NCBI GenBank assembly: GCA_022508505.1
Contig: JAFLVC010000016.1
Coordinates: forward strand, 1 to 37,736
Reading direction: 5' to 3'
Origin: Clostridiales bacterium
GTDB lineage: Bacteria; Bacillota; Clostridia; Christensenellales; Pumilibacteraceae
DNA length: 37,736 bases
Shown: piece after piece, positions 27,573-36,549 of the stretch
How the letters are laid out: each line of letters starts with the position of its first letter
Numbering within the stretch: position 1 is the stretch's first letter
Position numbers and translations under genes: made by a program
The notes under the pieces: generated by a model
Seen by the model: only the letters and a program-made list of their open reading frames with translations
Databases searched by the model: none
Told to the model about the DNA's origin: nothing

Positions 27573-29168
27573 TTATTTAATCTTTGCCAAAAGCTTTCTG
27601 TCGGAGTTGATACGCTTGAGCCGACGAATGGTCGCGGCGCGCGCCTTGGCAAGCTTTTGCTCGGACAGATACAGCTCGCGGTCGGCGGGCTCGAGCGAAT
27701 TGAGGAACGCCTCCTGCTCTGCCTTGCGCTTTTCCGCCGCTTCCTTGCGCGCGGCAAGTTGTTCGGGCGTGGGCTTTTTCTTTTCTTTGGGCGGCTCGAC
27801 AGGCTTTTGCTTTTTGCGCTCTTCCTTGTACGCAGAGATTCGCGCCTTTTCTTCGGGCGATAGCGGCTCGGTCGAGCTCAAAAGCGTATTGAGCTCTTCC
27901 ACCTGTTTAAGCTCGAGCTGTGCAGCCTGCTCGCGGTACTGCGCGTATGCACTGTGCGAGCTCAAAAGCCTTGCGCCATCATCGCCGAGCCTGTGTTTGG
28001 GCTGCGGCAGCTCCGGATAATCCTCGGCCTTTTCGAGCGGCTGTCCCTCGAAGAACTCGGGGTAATCGGGATTGCTCGTCGCACCGTTGCTGTCGACGCC
28101 CGGCGCGATGTCAGAACGCAAGCGCACACCCTGTTGACAAAGTATAATACCCTCGGGTGTTTGAACCGGAGTTAAGACAATGCTCTTGCCGCCCGACATG
28201 CCGCTAAGGATAAGCGTTTGCCCGTCCTCGGCGCTGCGCAATGTCGCACCGTTTCGGAGCGATTCGGCGAGCGACGAGGTAGTAACAGGCGCGGTCTGCG
28301 CGTCGACTGCCGCCGCAGTCTCGGGCGCCGTCTCGGGTGCTTGCGTTTTCTCGAGCGCGACGGACTTAGTCTCGATGAACTCGCCCAGCCTCTGCTCGAG
28401 CTCCTTGTCCTCCGTTCGTGTTTTGGGCTCCTCGGTAACCATGCCGATAACGTCCATGACCGCCGCTATCTCGTGAATGTTTTCGTAGCGCTGACTTACG
28501 TCGGCAAGCTCCTGCGCGCTCTTTTTGAGCGCCGCAGTCTCGAGCGCCTTGCGCTTTTCTTGCTTTTTGAGGTACGCAATCACTATCCAAGCGACCGCTA
28601 TTATGAACAGAATGACGATGAGAGTTACCGCGCCCTGCGCCGACTGCAAGAATCCGAATAAGTACCCGAAGAACCCGCAATGCTTGCCGGTGTAAATACC
28701 GATAACGTCGTCGTAGTCGGGATGAATGCTGTCAACGCGGACGTTCTTGTTGTCGCCCTTTGTCGTGTACGATGTTTTGCCCGTATTGGGGTTTTTGATG
28801 ACTTCAATGACGCGGTGCGTGAGAACGGTTATATTGCCGTCCTTGTCCTCAACCTCGAACGTGATGATAGTTCCGGCCTTGATATTGTCCTTCTTTTCGG
28901 ACTCGGGCACTTTGACAACTATCATGTGCCCTTCGGGAATTGTGGGGTCCATCGAGTCGGACACTATGGCAAACAGCCTGTAGTCGCCGAAGGTCGGATA
29001 ATAGTGCGGCATAAAAATACTCAAAATCGAGTTGATAACAAGCGCAACCAAAATCACCAACAACAGACATAAGCCCGTGTATTTAAACACTGCACGAGCG
29101 CGGTGCTTTTTGGGCTTAACCGCAGCGCCGCCGCTCTCAATCCCCTTTACTTCTTGTTCTTGCGACAT
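27573..29168 (-). CDS. sipW: SipW-like signal peptidase I with a long cytosolic tail
   Basis: ER-type signal peptidase I, 531 residues, that would cut the signal peptides of the neighbouring exported proteins. The enzyme part is residues 30-200: a first membrane helix (about 31-53), catalytic Ser72 in VSDSMDPTIPEG, His118 in LTHRVIEV replacing the lysine of the bacterial type, Asp139 in TKGDNK, and a second helix (about 180-200). Unlike SipW of Bacillus (about 190 residues), a further 330-residue charged tail follows, with Ala/Pro/Thr-rich and Lys/Glu-rich helical parts and no family I recognise. By topology it should lie in the cytosol. The ATG at 29168 sits 3 bases after the predicted +1 and has no SD. 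A terminator separates it from the upstream substrate gene. Confidence 0.9.
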   Translation of the reverse strand: MSQEQEVKGIESGGAAVKPKKHRARAVFKYTGLCLLLVILVALVINSILSIFMPHYYPTFGDYRLFAIVSDSMDPTIPEGHMIVVKVPESEKKDNIKAGTIITFEVEDKDGNITVLTHRVIEVIKNPNTGKTSYTTKGDNKNVRVDSIHPDYDDVIGIYTGKHCGFFGYLFGFLQSAQGAVTLIVILFIIAVAWIVIAYLKKQEKRKALETAALKKSAQELADVSQRYENIHEIAAVMDVIGMVTEEPKTRTEDKELEQRLGEFIETKSVALEKTQAPETAPETAAAVDAQTAPVTTSSLAESLRNGATLRSAEDGQTLILSGMSGGKSIVLTPVQTPEGIILCQQGVRLRSDIAPGVDSNGATSNPDYPEFFEGQPLEKAEDYPELPQPKHRLGDDGARLLSSHSAYAQYREQAAQLELKQVEELNTLLSSTEPLSPEEKARISAYKEERKKQKPVEPPKEKKKPTPEQLAARKEAAEKRKAEQEAFLNSLEPADRELYLSEQKLAKARAATIRRLKRINSDRKLLAKIK

Positions 29169-29177
29169 ATTACAGTT

Positions 29178-29206
29178 AGTATACCACACACGCCCGCTGT
29201 TGTCAA
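29178..29206 (-). promoter_or_regulatory. Sigma-A promoter of sipW, near-leaderless
   Basis: Minus strand TTGACA (29206-29201), 17-base spacer, TATACT (29183-29178). +1 is expected at about 29171, 3 bases before the ATG. No SD. Confidence 0.8.
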
Positions 29207-29248: not shown

Positions 29249-29284
29249 CAAAAACCGACTGTCAAAGACAATCGGTTTTGCTTT
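29249..29284. terminator. Bidirectional terminator between substrate gene and sipW
   Basis: 12-base stem AAACCGACTGTC / GACAATCGGTTT (one G-T pair) with a 3-base loop. T-rich sequence follows on both strands (GGTTTTTG on minus, TTTTGCTTTTC on plus). It lies about 140 bases downstream of the TasA-like gene at 29423. The 138 bases between hold nothing recognised. Confidence 0.7.
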
Positions 29285-29422: not shown

Positions 29423-29965
29423 TTAATCTGCGAGTGTGGCAGTTACGGTCAAAGTGTAATCTTTGCCCATTTCTGCTTTGGCTGCTGCGCCGGAAGCATC
29501 GGACGCCAATATTACATTGATTGTAACCGTTCCCGTGCTTGCGAGGTCAGTCAATACTATGCTTCCTGTCAACGATTCCCATCCGGTAGGAACAAGTGTG
29601 TCTCCACGCGTCGGAGTTGAAACCGAACTACCAAGCTTATAGTACAGGGGGAGAGTAGCTTCATTTTCAACAGTCAACGTAAATTTATAGGTTGAAGCAG
29701 GTGCTTTTGCCCCTGACTCATCGCTATACGCAACCGTGAAAGTGTGTATAGTAGTGCCGCTACCCTGATCATACGGGACCAATGCAGTAGCAGAGGCCGG
29801 AGTAATCGTAACAGTACCAGCTTCGGTGATAATTGTGGAAGTAGAACCGGTAGCGCTTTCAGTGCTCGGAGTCCCGCTCGTCCACGCCGCGAACGAAACA
29901 GCGCCGATGCCCGCGATAGCCGCGACCGAGGACGCGATTACGAGGGGTTTTACAAACTTTTTCAT
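29423..29965 (-). CDS. TasA/camelysin-like exported protein 1
   Basis: Small secreted protein of 180 residues, probable substrate of the adjacent SipW-like peptidase. A signal peptide (KKFVKPLVIASSVAAIAG, about residues 2-19) ends in VSFAAW, with cleavage likely after the Ala. The mature part is rich in Thr, Ser, Ala and beta strands (GTVTITPAS, TYKFTLTVENEATLPLYYKLG, GTVTINVILAS, DYTLTVTATLAD), with no cysteine, as in the fibre-forming TasA and camelysin families. A strong AAAGGAG SD and a leader similar to that of the paralogous gene at 30244 precede it. Fibre formation is an inference from family and context. It may be a minor or major fibre protein. Confidence 0.82.
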   Translation of the reverse strand: MKKFVKPLVIASSVAAIAGIGAVSFAAWTSGTPSTESATGSTSTIITEAGTVTITPASATALVPYDQGSGTTIHTFTVAYSDESGAKAPASTYKFTLTVENEATLPLYYKLGSSVSTPTRGDTLVPTGWESLTGSIVLTDLASTGTVTINVILASDASGAAAKAEMGKDYTLTVTATLAD

Positions 29966-30049
29966 CTTTTTTCTCCTTTAAAGATTTTATTTTCAATTTA
30001 TTTTAAGCCGTCTGCGCCCTGCCGCTTTCAGCATTAAAATCGGTGATAT

Positions 30050-30210
30050 CGCGAGCAGAGCTCGCGGTGAGATTTTGCGCTTGCGCGCAAAGCGAGATTC
30101 GCCAATCTGCGAGTGAGCAGTGCGGCGCGCGAACAAACAGCGAACAATCATGTAGATTGCTTGCTACGAGAGCGAGCGAGGGACCGAGGCGTTACGGCTT
30201 GCGGTCCCCG
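30050..30210. other. Run of small hairpins between the two TasA-like genes
   Basis: Four separate inverted repeats in a row in the 278-base gap: GCGAGC/GCTCGC (30051-30065), TTTGCGC/GCGCAAA (30074-30091), AGATT/AATCT (30095-30108) and GGGACCG/CGGTCCC (30180-30208). None has a T-run as a normal terminator would. No ORF of note is present. Confidence 0.6.
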
Positions 30211-30243
30211 CCGCTTTTGGCGTAAAAAAAGTTGTAAGCGCTG

Positions 30244-30810
30244 TTATGCGTTGGTTGCGGTTGCGGTGAACGTCAGCGCCACCGTCGCGCCCATAGAGTC
30301 GGTATTGTCGGCTACCAAATAAACATAAATAGTCGCCGTTTTGGTGCTTCCGGTAATCGTAGTAATTGTTTGTGCCGAAGAAATATTCTTGCCAGCCCCG
30401 TCATCTTTTCCGGTCGGCGCTGCACCTTCCTTGAACATCAGAGCCGGAGTCCCCGTATTTGCCGTGCCACCGGAAAGCGTGCCCGATATTTGCACGGTTT
30501 GGGCGCCGTCACCGGTAACGGTTACAGTAAACTGCCAATATTTTACGCCGTCGCCGACACCCGTATCCTGGTCGACAGGATACAAAGCTTTCATTGTGCC
30601 CTGTGCCGTACCGCTTGAGTTGTCATACGTGCCGGAAGCCTCGTCAGCTTTAACCGTAACGCTGCCTACCGTGTTGATCGAGCCGGTCTGTCCTGAAACC
30701 TCGACATTCTTGCTGGTGTCGCCCGTCCACTTTGCGAACGAGACGGCGCTGATGCCTACTGCCGCTACTGCGGCTGCCGCGATGATGAGTGCCTTTTTTG
30801 CCTTTTTCAT
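30244..30810 (-). CDS. TasA/camelysin-like exported protein 2
   Basis: Exported protein of 188 residues, related in layout to the one at 29423. The signal peptide (MKKAKKALIIAAAAVAAVG) ends VSFAKW. After it comes TSKNVEVSGQTGSINTVG, similar to the same region of the giant protein. The mature part is beta-rich with many Gly, Thr and Ala (YWQFTVTVTGDGAQTVQISG, ATIYVYLVADNTDSMGATVALTF in pieces) and has no cysteine. The ATG at 30810 was chosen for its AAAGGAG SD. It lies between the giant gene (104 bases upstream) and TasA-like protein 1. The likely role is a fibre or matrix protein processed by SipW. Confidence 0.82.
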   Translation of the reverse strand: MKKAKKALIIAAAAVAAVGISAVSFAKWTGDTSKNVEVSGQTGSINTVGSVTVKADEASGTYDNSSGTAQGTMKALYPVDQDTGVGDGVKYWQFTVTVTGDGAQTVQISGTLSGGTANTGTPALMFKEGAAPTGKDDGAGKNISSAQTITTITGSTKTATIYVYLVADNTDSMGATVALTFTATATNA

Positions 30811-30913
30811 GATTTTTTTCTCCTTTTGGAAATTATTTTTTATTTTTCTGCCTTTCGGCATTAAAACCGTTATATATGCTGTTGTTTAACGTCTGCTCGC
30901 CCGACGAGTGAGG

Positions 30914-33900
30914 TTAATATGAAACGTACGACGAGCCGTTATAGCGTTTACATGTAGGCGTCCATTCCAAATCCCACCAATCCCAGTGATCGTTATAATT
31001 GGCCTCTACGAAATATGAGTACCCTGCTGAAAACTTGGACGAACTTATATCAGAAGACTTCCATATGTTACTCGTGCTATGAGGCGACTCAAAATTGATA
31101 ACTACTACGTATGTAGATGTAAGTAGCGTCGACGTCTTAAAGTCGTAATAATAAACTCCGCTACTTGTGGCATTGTCGTCACGGATATAGCTCATATAAT
31201 TTCCGGGCCATGACGTTCCACCCGACAAGTTGTTGCTCGAATTATTGAAATGGATTCTCGGTGCTTTGCTGGCCATGCTTTTGTTACTTATTGTCTTGTA
31301 CTGTGAGAATACCACGCGGAACATGCTTTTAACGGTCGGATACATGCTACTTGTACCTTTCGTGAACTCGTCGACGGTAAACTCGGTCGACATAACGTCC
31401 ATGTTGTACTCGTCGCCATTGGTGGTGCTGCCGTTCTTGCCGTACCAGGTAAAGTTCGAGCCCGAGGTCGGGACATACACTATCTTATACTTGGTAAACG
31501 CTTCCGGACTTTCGACATTCGTCACGATGAAGTCGAGCGTCGCGCTGTACACACCCTCTATCGTCGTAGCAGTCAGTTTGTTGGCGGCAAACGCCTGCCA
31601 ATTGGAGAAGGTGCCGACCGCATACCAACCCGAGTTTGCTGTAGTGCCCGTGGTTATCGCCGTTTGCAGTGCGGCATTTCCGCCCATAAAGCCGATCGAC
31701 ACGGCATCCCCGGAGGCCGACACGCCTATCGTGAACTTGCCCTTGACCTTCGCCTCGATATTCGTACCGCCGCGCGTGGAGTTGATAGTGTAATTATAGC
31801 CGGAACGCGTTACACGATAGATGTCGTCGGCAAATTTATCGCCATTGTGAATGGTAGCATTCACTCGACTGCTGCCGCGGTAAATCATGAACGAGGTGCC
31901 GGGCGCGATATAATCGGCGCTACCCTTCTTGCTGTCGAGGGTGTACAAATCGGTCTGGTAATATCCGTCGCCCGACGGCGCATTGAGAGAAGCGGTCTTT
32001 ACCGTAGTGCCGTCTTTATATACAATGCTGTCTACCCAACCGACAGTGAGCGAGGTCTTGTTAGCATAAGTTACAGTCGTCTGCATAGGCGTATGACCGT
32101 AAACTACGCTTGCCGTGCCGTTAGTCACTTTAATCTTGAGCGTATACACATCTGCGGTGTCGACAAATATGTTGCTGTCCGCGCTCGTCGTTTTAAGACC
32201 GCTTCCGATAGCGTCCGAAGGCAGCGAATACCAATTGTTGTTTATGACAAACTTGAACTCGTCGCCGGGCGCAAGGTATATATCTTTAAACACATACCAA
32301 CCGTCCTCTGTCGAATCGTTCTTAATGCCGGTACTCCAAGTAGAGCCTATGCTTGCAATCTGTCCCGCAATCACCGCTCCGCTTATAGCACCCAGAGATT
32401 TGGTAGGCTTTATCAACGCCAAGCGGTACGACTTGCCCGAAGTGAACGCGAACGAGCTTCCTGCAGTAACCGCGTTGATATCGACGCCGTTACTTACCGT
32501 GAGCGAAGCTATCTTGAGCGTGCTCAGGGCATCCGCGTAGTAGCCTGCGATGCCGGAGCCGCTCGGGGTTTTCTTAAATGTTATTCCAAGCGAAATGTCT
32601 GCGCCGAATATGTCTGTACGGTACGTTACGACGGGAGCCGTATCACCCTCCACTATTATACGGTAGACATCAGGCAGAGCGTTTACGATCTCGTCCTTCC
32701 ACTCGTCGTAGTAAAGCGCTGTTATTTCATTTCCGTTGTTGAGAACGAGGGTTTCACTGCCGCTTATCGTCAGATACTTGGTGATGACGACGCCGCTACC
32801 GTATTCGACGACCGCGATGCGGTACATGGCGCCGTTTGCGATATCGAGCCCTGTCTTGCCGTAAATGCCTTCGATATCGGTCGTCGTAAGCCTATTCGCC
32901 GCGAGCACCTCGTAGTTGGAGAAACTGCCGACTGCGTAGTAGCCGCTCGCCGTAGCGTCGCTCTTGATGTTGCCGTCGGTCGCAGGGAGAACTTCCAGCC
33001 TGTCGCCGTCGAGATAAACCCTGTACGTGCCGGCCGACTTGATGTTGACTATTCTTTCCTTGAATGCTCCGCCGCCGAAATAATCATAAGCGCCGCCGTT
33101 TACATGCTCCGTTACGAACTCGGCATACTTGCCGTCGAACGCGTCGAGCGAATAACCACTGACAATGAGGCTATCAGTCGTGCTGTCGGATATGCCCGTA
33201 AGGCTCATCTGACCGAGCGACACCTCGCCGTCCGCAGATACTTCTATGACCTTGAACTGCGTGCCTGCCGCAACGTTCTCCAAGATAGCCGCTATGCCTG
33301 CTTCCTTGCCGCTTTCGGTATAGCCAACTGTTTCAAATTTGACAAACTTGCCGACGCCTGTCGCAGGATTGGCTATATACACGTACTTGCCTGCCGCAAG
33401 ACGGACGGTTTCACTCGTCCAGTAGTCGGCAACTACGAGCGAGTAATCGTCCTCACCGTTCTGAGTGAACTGCAAGGTGTACATGCCAGATTTTTCGGCA
33501 ACTAGGTACTTCTTGCCGGTCATTGTCAAGCCGTCGGCGGAAGTAATCGTGCGAGGCGCCGAACCGTCATACGTATTGTACATATACACGCGCTCACCCG
33601 TTTCAAGCCATACAGTGCCCTCGACGGTGGTCTTTGATGCAATCGAAGTGGCAACTTTTGTAAATTCGTCGCCATGTCTAATCCACAGGCTGGAATCAAC
33701 ATACGTCCATTTTGCCGTAAGCGTGATATCGGCATTTACGACATTATTATCGAAATCCCAAAGCACTTCGTTATAGTACCAACCGAGGAATATATCGTTA
33801 TTCGTTCCCTTTGTCGGGTCGGACGGAACCGTAGCCGTTTCGCCTACTGTGACATACTGCTCAACAGTCGAAGCCCCGTCTATGCTACCGCCGTCGGCGT

Positions 33901-36490
33901 CAAACGTCACGATGTAGAAGTTGGGCGCAACACTGAGCCTTCCGTCGGCAAAAATCGCTCTGTACGCTCCCTCCGCCTTGACTTGGAAAATCTTGTTTTT
34001 ATACTCTTCCTTGTACTCGCCGCCGTTCGGGTGAGAATTTATAACCTCTGCAAAGTCGTTGCTGTCAACAAGGGTAAAGGTTTGCACAATGCTTTCGGAC
34101 GAGCTTTCGGACACTCCGGTAAAGCTTATGTTGACAAGCGTTACCGCGCCGTTGCTTGCCAAGCTTATGATCTTAAACTGCGTGCCGGACTTGATATCGT
34201 TCAATACCGCAGAGCCGTTTTCGAGCTTGACAAACCTATTAGCCGCATTGAGCGTATTGTCTATGATGTACAGATACGTGCCTGCCGTAAGCTCGACGGA
34301 CTCGACCTCCCAATAGTCGGCAACCCAGAGCGCGTAATCGTCCTCACCGTATTGAGTAAACTGCAAGGTATACATTCCGTCTTTATCAGCAGTCCAAGAC
34401 CTAACATCCGTTGCCGAACCGTTGACGGAAGTCATATTGCGCGGTGTGGGCGCATTCCACGTATTGTAGATATACACGCGCTCACCCGATACAAGCCAAA
34501 CCGTACACCCGATGGTGTGCGTCGCCGCCATATCACCGCTGAGCTTGACAAATTTGATATTGTTATAATTGTCCTCATCGCCGTATCTGATATACAGACT
34601 GCTTGCGTCGAGAGTTGCCCACTGGGCGTAAAGAGTCATGTCATCGGTTATTACGGTGTCGAAGTTCCAGCGCGTGCCGTCCTCTTTATACCAGCCGAGG
34701 AATATTTCTGTATTTCCCCACTTCACGGGGTCGGTAGGAGCCGACACGGCATTATTGACATCGACGTATCGAGAATAAGGCGTATCGTCGGGGAACCAGC
34801 CGCCGTTGGTATCAAACGCCACGATCTTAACCGATACGGCAGCGAGAGCGCCTATACTATGATCCCCACTCGCTTTGAAGTACAATCCAATCCGATCGTC
34901 GACTAACGATGTTGCAAAGTTCTCACCGTCGTTCTTTAATACAGCGTCGCCGTTGTTTTCGCATATAAACGTGGGAACGTCTCCGTCCACGAAGAAGCGA
35001 AGTTCGTCGTCAGGTTTAAGATCAACGGCGACAAAGAACTCATCTCCGTATCTATCGTCATCGGTGACATTGCGATGCCAGCCCATTCCTTTGAGTTCGC
35101 CGTTAACGACAGCATACCACACTCCGTCAAGATCGCTCTTTAAGTGCCACTTGGCGTACAGAGTCTTGTCTGCGGTCACTTTGCCGGTATTGAAGTTCCA
35201 GAACTTCGTGCAAGCACTGTCCTCGAACCATCCGCCGAATACGTAGTTGTTTCGCGTAGGATCTGCCGGACGAGGAACTGAATTATCGTCATTGACTTGA
35301 GATTCAAAAGAGTTATTTTCTCCGTAGTTCAAGTCGAACTTAACTTTAAGTGCTTCGCTTGTAAGTGTGCTGAGTACACCGTACGTATGATTACTGTCGG
35401 TTTTGAAGTACAATGTGAATATGCCGTCTTTGAGCGCAGTTGCGAAGTTGTCGCTCGCCTTCTTTTCTATTGCGCCGTCTACCCAGTCAAGAGTAAACGG
35501 AGGCACGTCGCCGTCAACAAAGAACCTTATCTCGTCGCTCTGTGCAAGAATGACGTTAACACTGAACTCGTCATTGAATTGTCCGCCGGTTTCTTCATAG
35601 AAATTATGATGCCAGCTCATATCCATGAGTTCGCCGTTAATAACCGCATACCAGTGTCCGTCAAGCTCGTGCTTGTAATGCCACTTGGCGTACAGCACCA
35701 AGTCTTCTGTCACGGTATCTCTATCGAAGTTCCAGAACTGCGTGCAGTCTCTATCCTTGAACCAGCCGCCGAAGACATAAATAACATCCATTCCGCCGCC
35801 GTCCCAGCCCCACCAGTCGTTATTTCTGGTAGGATCAGCCGGACGAGAGACCTTGCCGTTTTCAGTCACGTACTGGGGAGGCGGAGTAGTACTGCTTCCG
35901 CCGTTAAGGTCGAACTTCACTTCTAATCCGTTGACAGGTTTTTCCCTTGTAACTATCGCGTTAAGCGTAAAGCTGACAGTATCGTTTATCGGGTCAATGA
36001 GAAAATCCAGAGCGCAATATTGCTCCGCTCCGGCACCGAAATCTATTTGTATATACCGTCCGTTTAATGTGGCGGCGTTCACTTCTATTTTATCAAAGCC
36101 GTCGAGAGCTTGTTTACCGCCAGACGGCACGCCGTTTTCATCCGTCGGCGTGCGATACAGTGAAAACCTAAATACACCGGCTTCATTTGTAACGTTCGAC
36201 GTTTCAAACTTTATGTAAACCGTGCCGGCGGACTCTTCGCCTGTCGACGACACACAGATATAATTGTTGTACTGTACACCCCACGCTATACTTACGTTCG
36301 CTGTTCTGACGACTTGGTCGTCTCCTTCGAACTCTTGATAGAACAGGCCTACCTCGCCGTTGACGGCGGCGGTCTTGGAGCTTTCGCTCTGCCACTGCGC
36401 AAATGAAACGGAAAATAATGCGGTAAACAAAAGCACCGCGAGTGCAATGGCAGAAAATATGGCTATTCGCAACCGTTTAGTGCCTGTCAT
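30914..36490 (-). CDS. Giant modular exported protein with InlB-type repeats
   Basis: Secreted protein of 1858 residues. A signal peptide (about 1-31) ends VSFAQW, as in the two TasA-like proteins, followed by a related N-terminal domain (to about 185). Four Listeria-Bacteroides (Flg_new/InlB B-type) repeats, each ending in a LYAKW-like motif, lie at about 190-270, 382-448, 555-624 and 858-928. Between them are two further duplicated modules: one with DGxWYAVxNGEL and FFVDGDVP (about 272-380 and 450-553), and one with WIRxGDE, ERVYxYNT and GMYTLQFTQ (about 626-857 and 930-1170). Later, GxYAVGSFSN / GWYAVGTFSNW is duplicated, and the C-terminal 120 residues (TSWPGNYM, YYYDFK) resemble starch-binding CBM26 modules. 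There is no LPxTG anchor. A consensus promoter and a GGGG SD precede the ATG. Probable adhesin or matrix scaffold. Confidence 0.85.
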   Translation of the reverse strand: MTGTKRLRIAIFSAIALAVLLFTALFSVSFAQWQSESSKTAAVNGEVGLFYQEFEGDDQVVRTANVSIAWGVQYNNYICVSSTGEESAGTVYIKFETSNVTNEAGVFRFSLYRTPTDENGVPSGGKQALDGFDKIEVNAATLNGRYIQIDFGAGAEQYCALDFLIDPINDTVSFTLNAIVTREKPVNGLEVKFDLNGGSSTTPPPQYVTENGKVSRPADPTRNNDWWGWDGGGMDVIYVFGGWFKDRDCTQFWNFDRDTVTEDLVLYAKWHYKHELDGHWYAVINGELMDMSWHHNFYEETGGQFNDEFSVNVILAQSDEIRFFVDGDVPPFTLDWVDGAIEKKASDNFATALKDGIFTLYFKTDSNHTYGVLSTLTSEALKVKFDLNYGENNSFESQVNDDNSVPRPADPTRNNYVFGGWFEDSACTKFWNFNTGKVTADKTLYAKWHLKSDLDGVWYAVVNGELKGMGWHRNVTDDDRYGDEFFVAVDLKPDDELRFFVDGDVPTFICENNGDAVLKNDGENFATSLVDDRIGLYFKASGDHSIGALAAVSVKIVAFDTNGGWFPDDTPYSRYVDVNNAVSAPTDPVKWGNTEIFLGWYKEDGTRWNFDTVITDDMTLYAQWATLDASSLYIRYGDEDNYNNIKFVKLSGDMAATHTIGCTVWLVSGERVYIYNTWNAPTPRNMTSVNGSATDVRSWTADKDGMYTLQFTQYGEDDYALWVADYWEVESVELTAGTYLYIIDNTLNAANRFVKLENGSAVLNDIKSGTQFKIISLASNGAVTLVNISFTGVSESSSESIVQTFTLVDSNDFAEVINSHPNGGEYKEEYKNKIFQVKAEGAYRAIFADGRLSVAPNFYIVTFDADGGSIDGASTVEQYVTVGETATVPSDPTKGTNNDIFLGWYYNEVLWDFDNNVVNADITLTAKWTYVDSSLWIRHGDEFTKVATSIASKTTVEGTVWLETGERVYMYNTYDGSAPRTITSADGLTMTGKKYLVAEKSGMYTLQFTQNGEDDYSLVVADYWTSETVRLAAGKYVYIANPATGVGKFVKFETVGYTESGKEAGIAAILENVAAGTQFKVIEVSADGEVSLGQMSLTGISDSTTDSLIVSGYSLDAFDGKYAEFVTEHVNGGAYDYFGGGAFKERIVNIKSAGTYRVYLDGDRLEVLPATDGNIKSDATASGYYAVGSFSNYEVLAANRLTTTDIEGIYGKTGLDIANGAMYRIAVVEYGSGVVITKYLTISGSETLVLNNGNEITALYYDEWKDEIVNALPDVYRIIVEGDTAPVVTYRTDIFGADISLGITFKKTPSGSGIAGYYADALSTLKIASLTVSNGVDINAVTAGSSFAFTSGKSYRLALIKPTKSLGAISGAVIAGQIASIGSTWSTGIKNDSTEDGWYVFKDIYLAPGDEFKFVINNNWYSLPSDAIGSGLKTTSADSNIFVDTADVYTLKIKVTNGTASVVYGHTPMQTTVTYANKTSLTVGWVDSIVYKDGTTVKTASLNAPSGDGYYQTDLYTLDSKKGSADYIAPGTSFMIYRGSSRVNATIHNGDKFADDIYRVTRSGYNYTINSTRGGTNIEAKVKGKFTIGVSASGDAVSIGFMGGNAALQTAITTGTTANSGWYAVGTFSNWQAFAANKLTATTIEGVYSATLDFIVTNVESPEAFTKYKIVYVPTSGSNFTWYGKNGSTTNGDEYNMDVMSTEFTVDEFTKGTSSMYPTVKSMFRVVFSQYKTISNKSMASKAPRIHFNNSSNNLSGGTSWPGNYMSYIRDDNATSSGVYYYDFKTSTLLTSTYVVVINFESPHSTSNIWKSSDISSSKFSAGYSYFVEANYNDHWDWWDLEWTPTCKRYNGSSYVSY

Positions 36491-36520: not shown

Positions 36521-36549
36521 ATTATAACACCATACGCATACCTTGTCAA
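36521..36549 (-). promoter_or_regulatory. Consensus sigma-A promoter of the giant gene
   Basis: Minus strand TTGACA (36549-36544), 17-base spacer, TATAAT (36526-36521), a perfect match to consensus. +1 is near 36514, leaving a 24-base leader. It may also serve the two TasA-like genes downstream. Confidence 0.85.

Follow-up and report, generated by a model that had tools for sequence, protein, structure and literature searches.

Three exported proteins of very different size, of 180, 188 and 1858 residues, are encoded beside a SipW-type signal peptidase in a stretch of clostridial DNA, and the question raised by this locus is whether the four genes together build one surface structure. The stretch, hereafter the window, is the whole of the 37,736-nucleotide contig JAFLVC010000016.1 (G000:C8) from a 1.89-Mb, 25-contig genome that is 96.8% complete (GenBank assembly GCA_022508505.1). 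Named relatives recovered by a peptidase profile search include Anaerocaecibacter muris strain CLA-AA-M11 (Pumilibacteraceae, class Clostridia), and we take the window's genus to be Anaerocaecibacter, family Pumilibacteraceae. A run of about 9 kb on the minus strand, from 36490 to 27573, carries the genes for the giant protein, the two small proteins and the peptidase (Table 1). With moderate confidence, we read this locus as encoding a SipW-dependent heteropolymeric surface fibre of the TasA/BsaA kind, equipped with a giant, probably glycan-binding, adhesin.

The signal peptides are the first line of evidence. All three open reading frames and their signal ends were confirmed, so that these proteins of disparate size do share the S-F-A-x-W end attributed to them in the original prediction. 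As a bare DNA pattern the motif is barely enriched in the genome (32 sites versus 23 for the reversed control), and it is therefore the signal context that carries the evidence. Thirty of the 32 sites were read in frame, the remaining two starting with a Thr codon so that no Ser is encoded, and among the 30 a hydrophobic stretch precedes the motif at the three locus sites only. The best 12-residue mean hydropathy is 2.26-2.90 at these three sites and at most 1.07 at every other scorable site, non-scorable sites being those with too little open frame upstream. A profile built from the three N-termini matches them, by construction, at E 6.1e-25 or better, and finds no other match in the genome below E 0.89. 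The genome search for further such ends thus indicates that the motif is not common to exported proteins. TIGR04088, the curated model of the SipW-cognate signal (cut-off 19 bits), has no match in the same genome at E 10. Across the genus, all 32 aligned subunits have the signal end S-[FY]-A-x-W (SFA in 25, SYA in 7). All 16 giants have one of the form [S/T]-x-[A/C]-x-W, in which the middle letters vary and which is exactly S-F-A-x-W in three.

The peptidase scores 74.5 bits against TIGR02228, the model of archaeal/endoplasmic reticulum-type signal peptidase I (cut-off 51.85; 77.8 bits in the genome search), and the only other match in the genome (G000:C1) reaches 27.8 bits, under the cut-off. 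With NF046067, the equivalog model of Bacillus SipW, it scores 85.1 bits, under the 190-bit cut-off. The motifs S-D-S-M and T-H-R-V are invariant in all 13 aligned copies, and we take their serine and histidine to be the catalytic pair. Although the mechanically called reading frame starts at 29249, the ATG at 29168 is the start that aligns with relatives. The SipW model comprises 189 positions, beyond which the window peptidase extends by about 320 residues (27576-28547, minus strand); this tail, which has no Pfam match better than E 0.7, is conserved in 11 aligned main-locus copies, whereas the G003 paralogue has a diverged form and the G016 paralogue lacks most of it. Second SipW copies beside small proteins with SipW-type signals also occur in the genus (L099/L128 on G003:C17, L111/L130 on G016:C2, and L133, probably on G002:C44).

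Inheritance of the locus was followed in 81 genomes, 20 of the genus (the window's own included) and 61 others. One and the same set of 17 among the 20 genus genomes carries both the small subunits and giants with a conserved domain, D1, and G005, G009 and G014 have neither. Outside the genus, D1 was found in none of the 61 genomes and subunits in one (G042). The three-row signal profile found 17 genus genomes and, weakly (E 0.002 to 0.009), three of the 61 others, and TIGR02228 matched at E 1e-8 in 17 genus genomes, including the window's own, being missing in G007, G013 and G014. The peptidase of G005 and G009 lies within about 2 kb of the low end of its contig, and a gap may possibly explain why subunits and giant are absent there. 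Linkage of the giant and subunit genes, whose absence was one of the two findings that would have refuted the original prediction, was found in relatives as well.

This pattern bears on an unlikely alternative, in which the small proteins make a mesh around the cells like that of TasA or BsaA, a secreted biofilm matrix, and the giant is a separate surface or matrix protein that shares their export route. TasA, BsaA and CalY/TasA are indeed presented as matrix polymers in the parts of the reports drawn on here (PMC9674648, PMC7395162, PMC13082335), which, within the same limits, describe SipW fibres as sortase-independent (PMC7395162, PMC13082335). Sortase PF04203 has no match in the window's own, 96.8% complete genome at E 0.1 (3 of 14 controls matched), which agrees with this alternative and equally with the fibre that we favour. 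D1 has no profile relation to the subunits, which also agrees with the alternative. However, a shared export route alone would not require that none of the 81 genomes has a D1 giant without subunits, and the giant stands directly upstream of the subunits in most loci read, G002 having it on another contig.

The make-up of the giant suggests what such a protein might do. D1, present as one strong copy in every giant compared, directly follows the signal in the window and in L108, L120 and L127, and lies further in elsewhere. The 16 giants are 772-2040 residues long, and the window giant has strong InlB-type repeats, as do five of the seven relatives that were scanned over their full length. A Pfam scan covered 15 of the 16 giants (L109 was left out) as 91 of 95 slices, four short terminal slices having been dropped. 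These slices match eight families at E 0.01 or better, including CBM26 (five slices), SusF_SusE (four) and CBM_20 (one); the tally is anonymous, and four of the five CBM26 and three of the four SusF_SusE slices were traced to giants. CBM26 and CBM_20 are starch-binding by their Pfam descriptions, as SusF_SusE proteins presumably are too. The L106 giant matches CBM26 at 29.0 bits, over the 28.1 cut-off, and this is the sole traced module match above a cut-off, both modules of the window giant falling below theirs (Table 1). CBM26 is also matched in L119, L121 and L125 and in L123 (E 1.1e-4 in the whole protein, 0.015 in the slice), CBM_20 also in L121, and SusF_SusE in L108 and L103, so that at least 8 of the 15 giants, the window's included, have carbohydrate-binding-like modules. 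Since the L106 match alone passes its cut-off, we regard a glycan as the likely ligand of the giants and starch as a lead. A second D1 giant frame, of 1039 residues and with a SipW-type signal match, was seen on another contig of G006 (G006:C8:1404-1961).

Between the two small proteins there is a sequence relation (33% identity over 78 residues, E 6e-6), and a tree of the subunits separates two kinds, a 15-row set (99/95) that includes the 188-residue protein (clade A) and another side that holds the 180-residue protein. The A kind is nearer the giant in eight of the eight loci with both kinds clearly assigned. This count omits loci with a single kind in the tree (G002, G006, G007, G008, G016, G017 and G018, of which G006 and G008 each have a second subunit outside it), as well as G015, whose third subunit is not clearly placed, and G013, whose subunit is not in the tree. 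The mechanically called frame of the 188-residue protein has 205 residues; its 188-residue start is an ATG behind an AAAGGAG stretch. The mature part of the 180-residue subunit was modelled as a beta-sandwich with a predicted template modelling (pTM) score of 0.83, and residues 1-9 fall below 50 in the predicted local distance difference test (pLDDT), that is, the N-terminus is free in the model. The best Foldseek matches of this model are weak, and nine of the 50 matches listed are filament proteins (FimG, CfaB, PapA, PapK, a Pyrobaculum bundling pilus and the Sulfolobus 0406 filament) whose use of donor strands we in part presume. The likeness to chaperone-usher pili is one of fold. PF12389 (TasA/CalY) has no match in any of the 20 genus genomes at E 0.01, although the Bacillus subtilis control matched, and it is not among the 25 of 33 families listed for 32 subunits. 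The 278-base gap between the subunit genes (30243-29966, minus strand) holds a G+C-rich stretch.

It is improbable, in our judgement, that the small proteins do not polymerise at all and are soluble sandwich proteins decorating or chaperoning the giant, the sole working surface protein. Their number does vary, from one to four matches per genome, against usually one D1 giant, and the weak fold matches would suit such a role. Nevertheless, a single peptidase accompanied by a number of divergent small paralogues is a pattern of pilin-like fibres, AAAGGAG ribosome sites precede both small genes, and the free N-terminus of the model also speaks for polymerisation. The view that exported proteins of this lineage have the signal end by mere habit, and that the cluster lacks a joint function, is largely refuted and very improbable: the motif is short and its bare pattern hardly enriched, but no other read site follows a hydrophobic stretch, the profile finds no further protein and the genes are inherited together.

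In the SipW-dependent fibre that we favour, the dedicated membrane signal peptidase would cut just three proteins of the genome, all with the S-F-A-x-W end, as signal exclusivity and linkage suggest. Outside the cell, a mixed fibre may then arise by polymerisation of the two small beta-sandwich proteins, which represent the two sides of the tree, probably with the flexible N-terminus of each subunit supplying a strand to the next; this step draws on the fold and on TasA, whose fibres assemble via N-terminal donor strands in the part of the source used (PMC9674648). The giant, presumably released by the same enzyme, could dock onto the fibre through the N-terminal part holding D1 and display a stalk in which InlB-type repeats are combined with carbohydrate-binding-like modules. 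The whole would act as a glycan-directed adhesin, with starch or some other alpha-glucan as a plausible target. A bolder version, which we put forward tentatively and hold to be doubtful, is a starch-gripping Gram-positive pilus: two-subunit, SipW-assembled and sortase-free, with a giant alpha-glucan-binding adhesin, making a TasA-like tie to starch grains or polysaccharide.

Several observations weigh against the fibre with a giant adhesin. The pattern S-K-x-x-x-V-x-G-x-x-G, noted originally after the cleavage site of the 188- and 1858-residue proteins, is present in both, though only marginally above chance; the likeness between giants and subunits at their mature N-termini is statistically weak, with 3 of 16 giants beating 95% of their own shuffles (0.0355 for the window giant). 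Because this likeness is marginal and the D1 and subunit profiles are unrelated, the docking of the giant onto the fibre is put forward as tentative. Gene order is variable: SipW comes last, after giant and subunits, in the window, G018 and G019, and first, before giant and subunits, in G001, G003, G004, G008, G010, G012 and G016. Furthermore, SipW is non-adjacent in 4 of the 17 locus genomes (G006, 17 kb off; G011, G015 and G017, on another contig) and undetected in two, G007, which has about 410 contigs, and G013, where a contig end lies 127 bases from the start of the giant. The original prediction of a dedicated adjacent peptidase stands for the enzyme type and for the exclusive signal end in this genome, and adjacency holds in part of the genus. 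Its proposal of a complete system, two fibre subunits with a giant scaffold or tip, gains from the two subunit kinds, the pilin-like sandwich model of one of them and D1 in all 16 giants, and loses from the variable gene order.

Expression signals add detail. A scan returned 17 promoter-like sites where shuffles gave an expectation of 9.9; for this reason, the match quality and place of the sites before the giant and sipW count, not the number of sites. Given these separate sites and the hairpin between the 180-residue gene and sipW, the giant with the subunits and sipW are probably two transcription units. Among the sipW upstream regions, 12 copies were compared. In 10 of 10 main-locus copies (window 29206-29169, minus strand) the promoter-like site is near-perfect, with 7 to 10 bases between the end of its second hexamer and the sipW ATG, and none of these ten has a Shine-Dalgarno-like string before sipW; the site is absent from the sipW paralogues G003b and G016b. 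This arrangement suggests a leaderless or nearly leaderless sipW message, unlike the subunit genes with their clear ribosome sites. Upstream of the locus lie 5S ribosomal RNA, tRNA-Asn and the 3' end of a large-subunit ribosomal RNA gene, followed by the contig end.

Table 1. Coordinates of the features of the locus in the window (ORF, open reading frame).
Feature	Position	Strand	Basis
Giant modular protein, 1858 residues, SipW-type signal, proposed fibre-borne adhesin	30914..36490	-	ORF; PF09479 repeats, E 2.5e-43
S-F-A-Q-W signal end of giant	36392..36406	-	Pattern search and in-frame reading
D1 domain of giant (residues 57-187)	35930..36322	-	One strong copy in 16/16 giants; jelly-roll in low-confidence model
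Best of four InlB-type (Listeria-Bacteroides) repeats of giant	35150..35347	-	Residues 382-447
SusF_SusE-like module of giant (residues 1391-1485)	32036..32320	-	E 4.9e-4, 20.9 bits; below Pfam cut-off of 27.5
CBM26-like (starch-binding module) stretch near giant C-terminus (residues 1743-1799)	31094..31264	-	E 6.3e-4, 20.3 bits; below Pfam cut-off of 28.1
Clade A subunit, 188 residues	30244..30810	-	ORF, ribosome site, alignment, tree
S-F-A-K-W signal end of clade A subunit	30727..30741	-	Pattern search and in-frame reading
B-side subunit, 180 residues; mature part a modelled beta-sandwich, pLDDT 86.2	29423..29965	-	ORF, alignment, model, tree
S-F-A-A-W signal end of B subunit	29882..29896	-	Pattern search and in-frame reading
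SipW-type signal peptidase, 531 residues, conserved tail of about 320 residues	27573..29168	-	TIGR02228 match; alignment
Promoter-like site before giant, 12/12 (TTGACA-17-TATAAT, TG before second hexamer)	36521..36549	-	
Promoter-like site before sipW, 11/12, ends 9 bases before ATG	29178..29206	-	
Hairpin with T-rich arm between 180-residue subunit gene and sipW, possible terminator	29251..29279	-	Read by eye; absent from scanner list

Away from the main locus, G016 has open frames of 3712 and 4002 residues with weak SipW-type signal matches (C2:275528, E 2.2e-4; C8:11881, E 2.9e-4). In other genera, 20 stretches around SipW genes were collected, and in several of them a loose rule picks out proteins, both small and large, whose SipW-like signals end differently. 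Eight such proteins from four loci were compared with TIGR04088; just two match, both from locus L157 of G030 (another genus of the same family), and one protein of L165 weakly touches a TasA model (E 0.0023). G030 has 13 PF12389 matches, nine of them in frames of at least 600 residues.

In the sources drawn on here, the SipW-dependent fibres described, those of Bacillus and of Clostridium perfringens, are biofilm matrix, and no giant partner of this kind in a SipW system was met in the literature searched. Here a gut-anaerobe genus keeps a version with a giant as presumed third substrate, which has sugar-binding-like parts and is co-inherited with the subunits. If our reading is true, one peptidase and three substrates would provide a simple model of an adhesive fibre that needs no sortase, the genome having no match to one, and a testable idea of how these bacteria hold polysaccharide. 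Because this locus goes undetected by the curated models of signal and subunit, comparable loci elsewhere among the clostridia may have escaped counting.

Among known systems, which we compare as far as the cited parts of the sources extend, the locus resembles tapA-sipW-tasA of Bacillus subtilis in having SipW beside its substrates and a small protein of beta-sandwich fold, here modelled, whose N-terminus is flexible (PMC9674648, PMC10151520); TapA shares the donor strand and is proposed to start the fibre. The view that the window locus is comparable to but distinct from that system is borne out, since it has no PF12389 and no TIGR04088 signal, and has two subunit kinds, a giant modular partner and the peptidase tail. 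In Bacillus cereus, SipW likewise has three substrates, TasA, CalY and CapP, two being co-assembling filament subunits and one an accessory (PMC13082335), whereas the presumed third substrate here is a giant with carbohydrate-binding-like modules instead of the chaperone-like CapP. The sipW-bsaABCRSD operon of Clostridium perfringens also belongs to a clostridial anaerobe and encodes a SipW-dependent filament protein with further secreted proteins; there BsaA requires SipW to leave the cell, forms polymers and gives sipW-bsaA filaments (PMC7395162). This likeness is one of setting and gene content, and the four genes of the window, from giant to sipW, differ in including no two-component genes. 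Within the same family, L157 combines SipW with a small (234 residues) and a large (1201 residues) SipW-signal protein, the latter having a stretch like the adhesin HupY/LrrG, far below that model's cut-off; unlike the window proteins, both pass the TIGR04088 cut-off and the large one matches PF12389.

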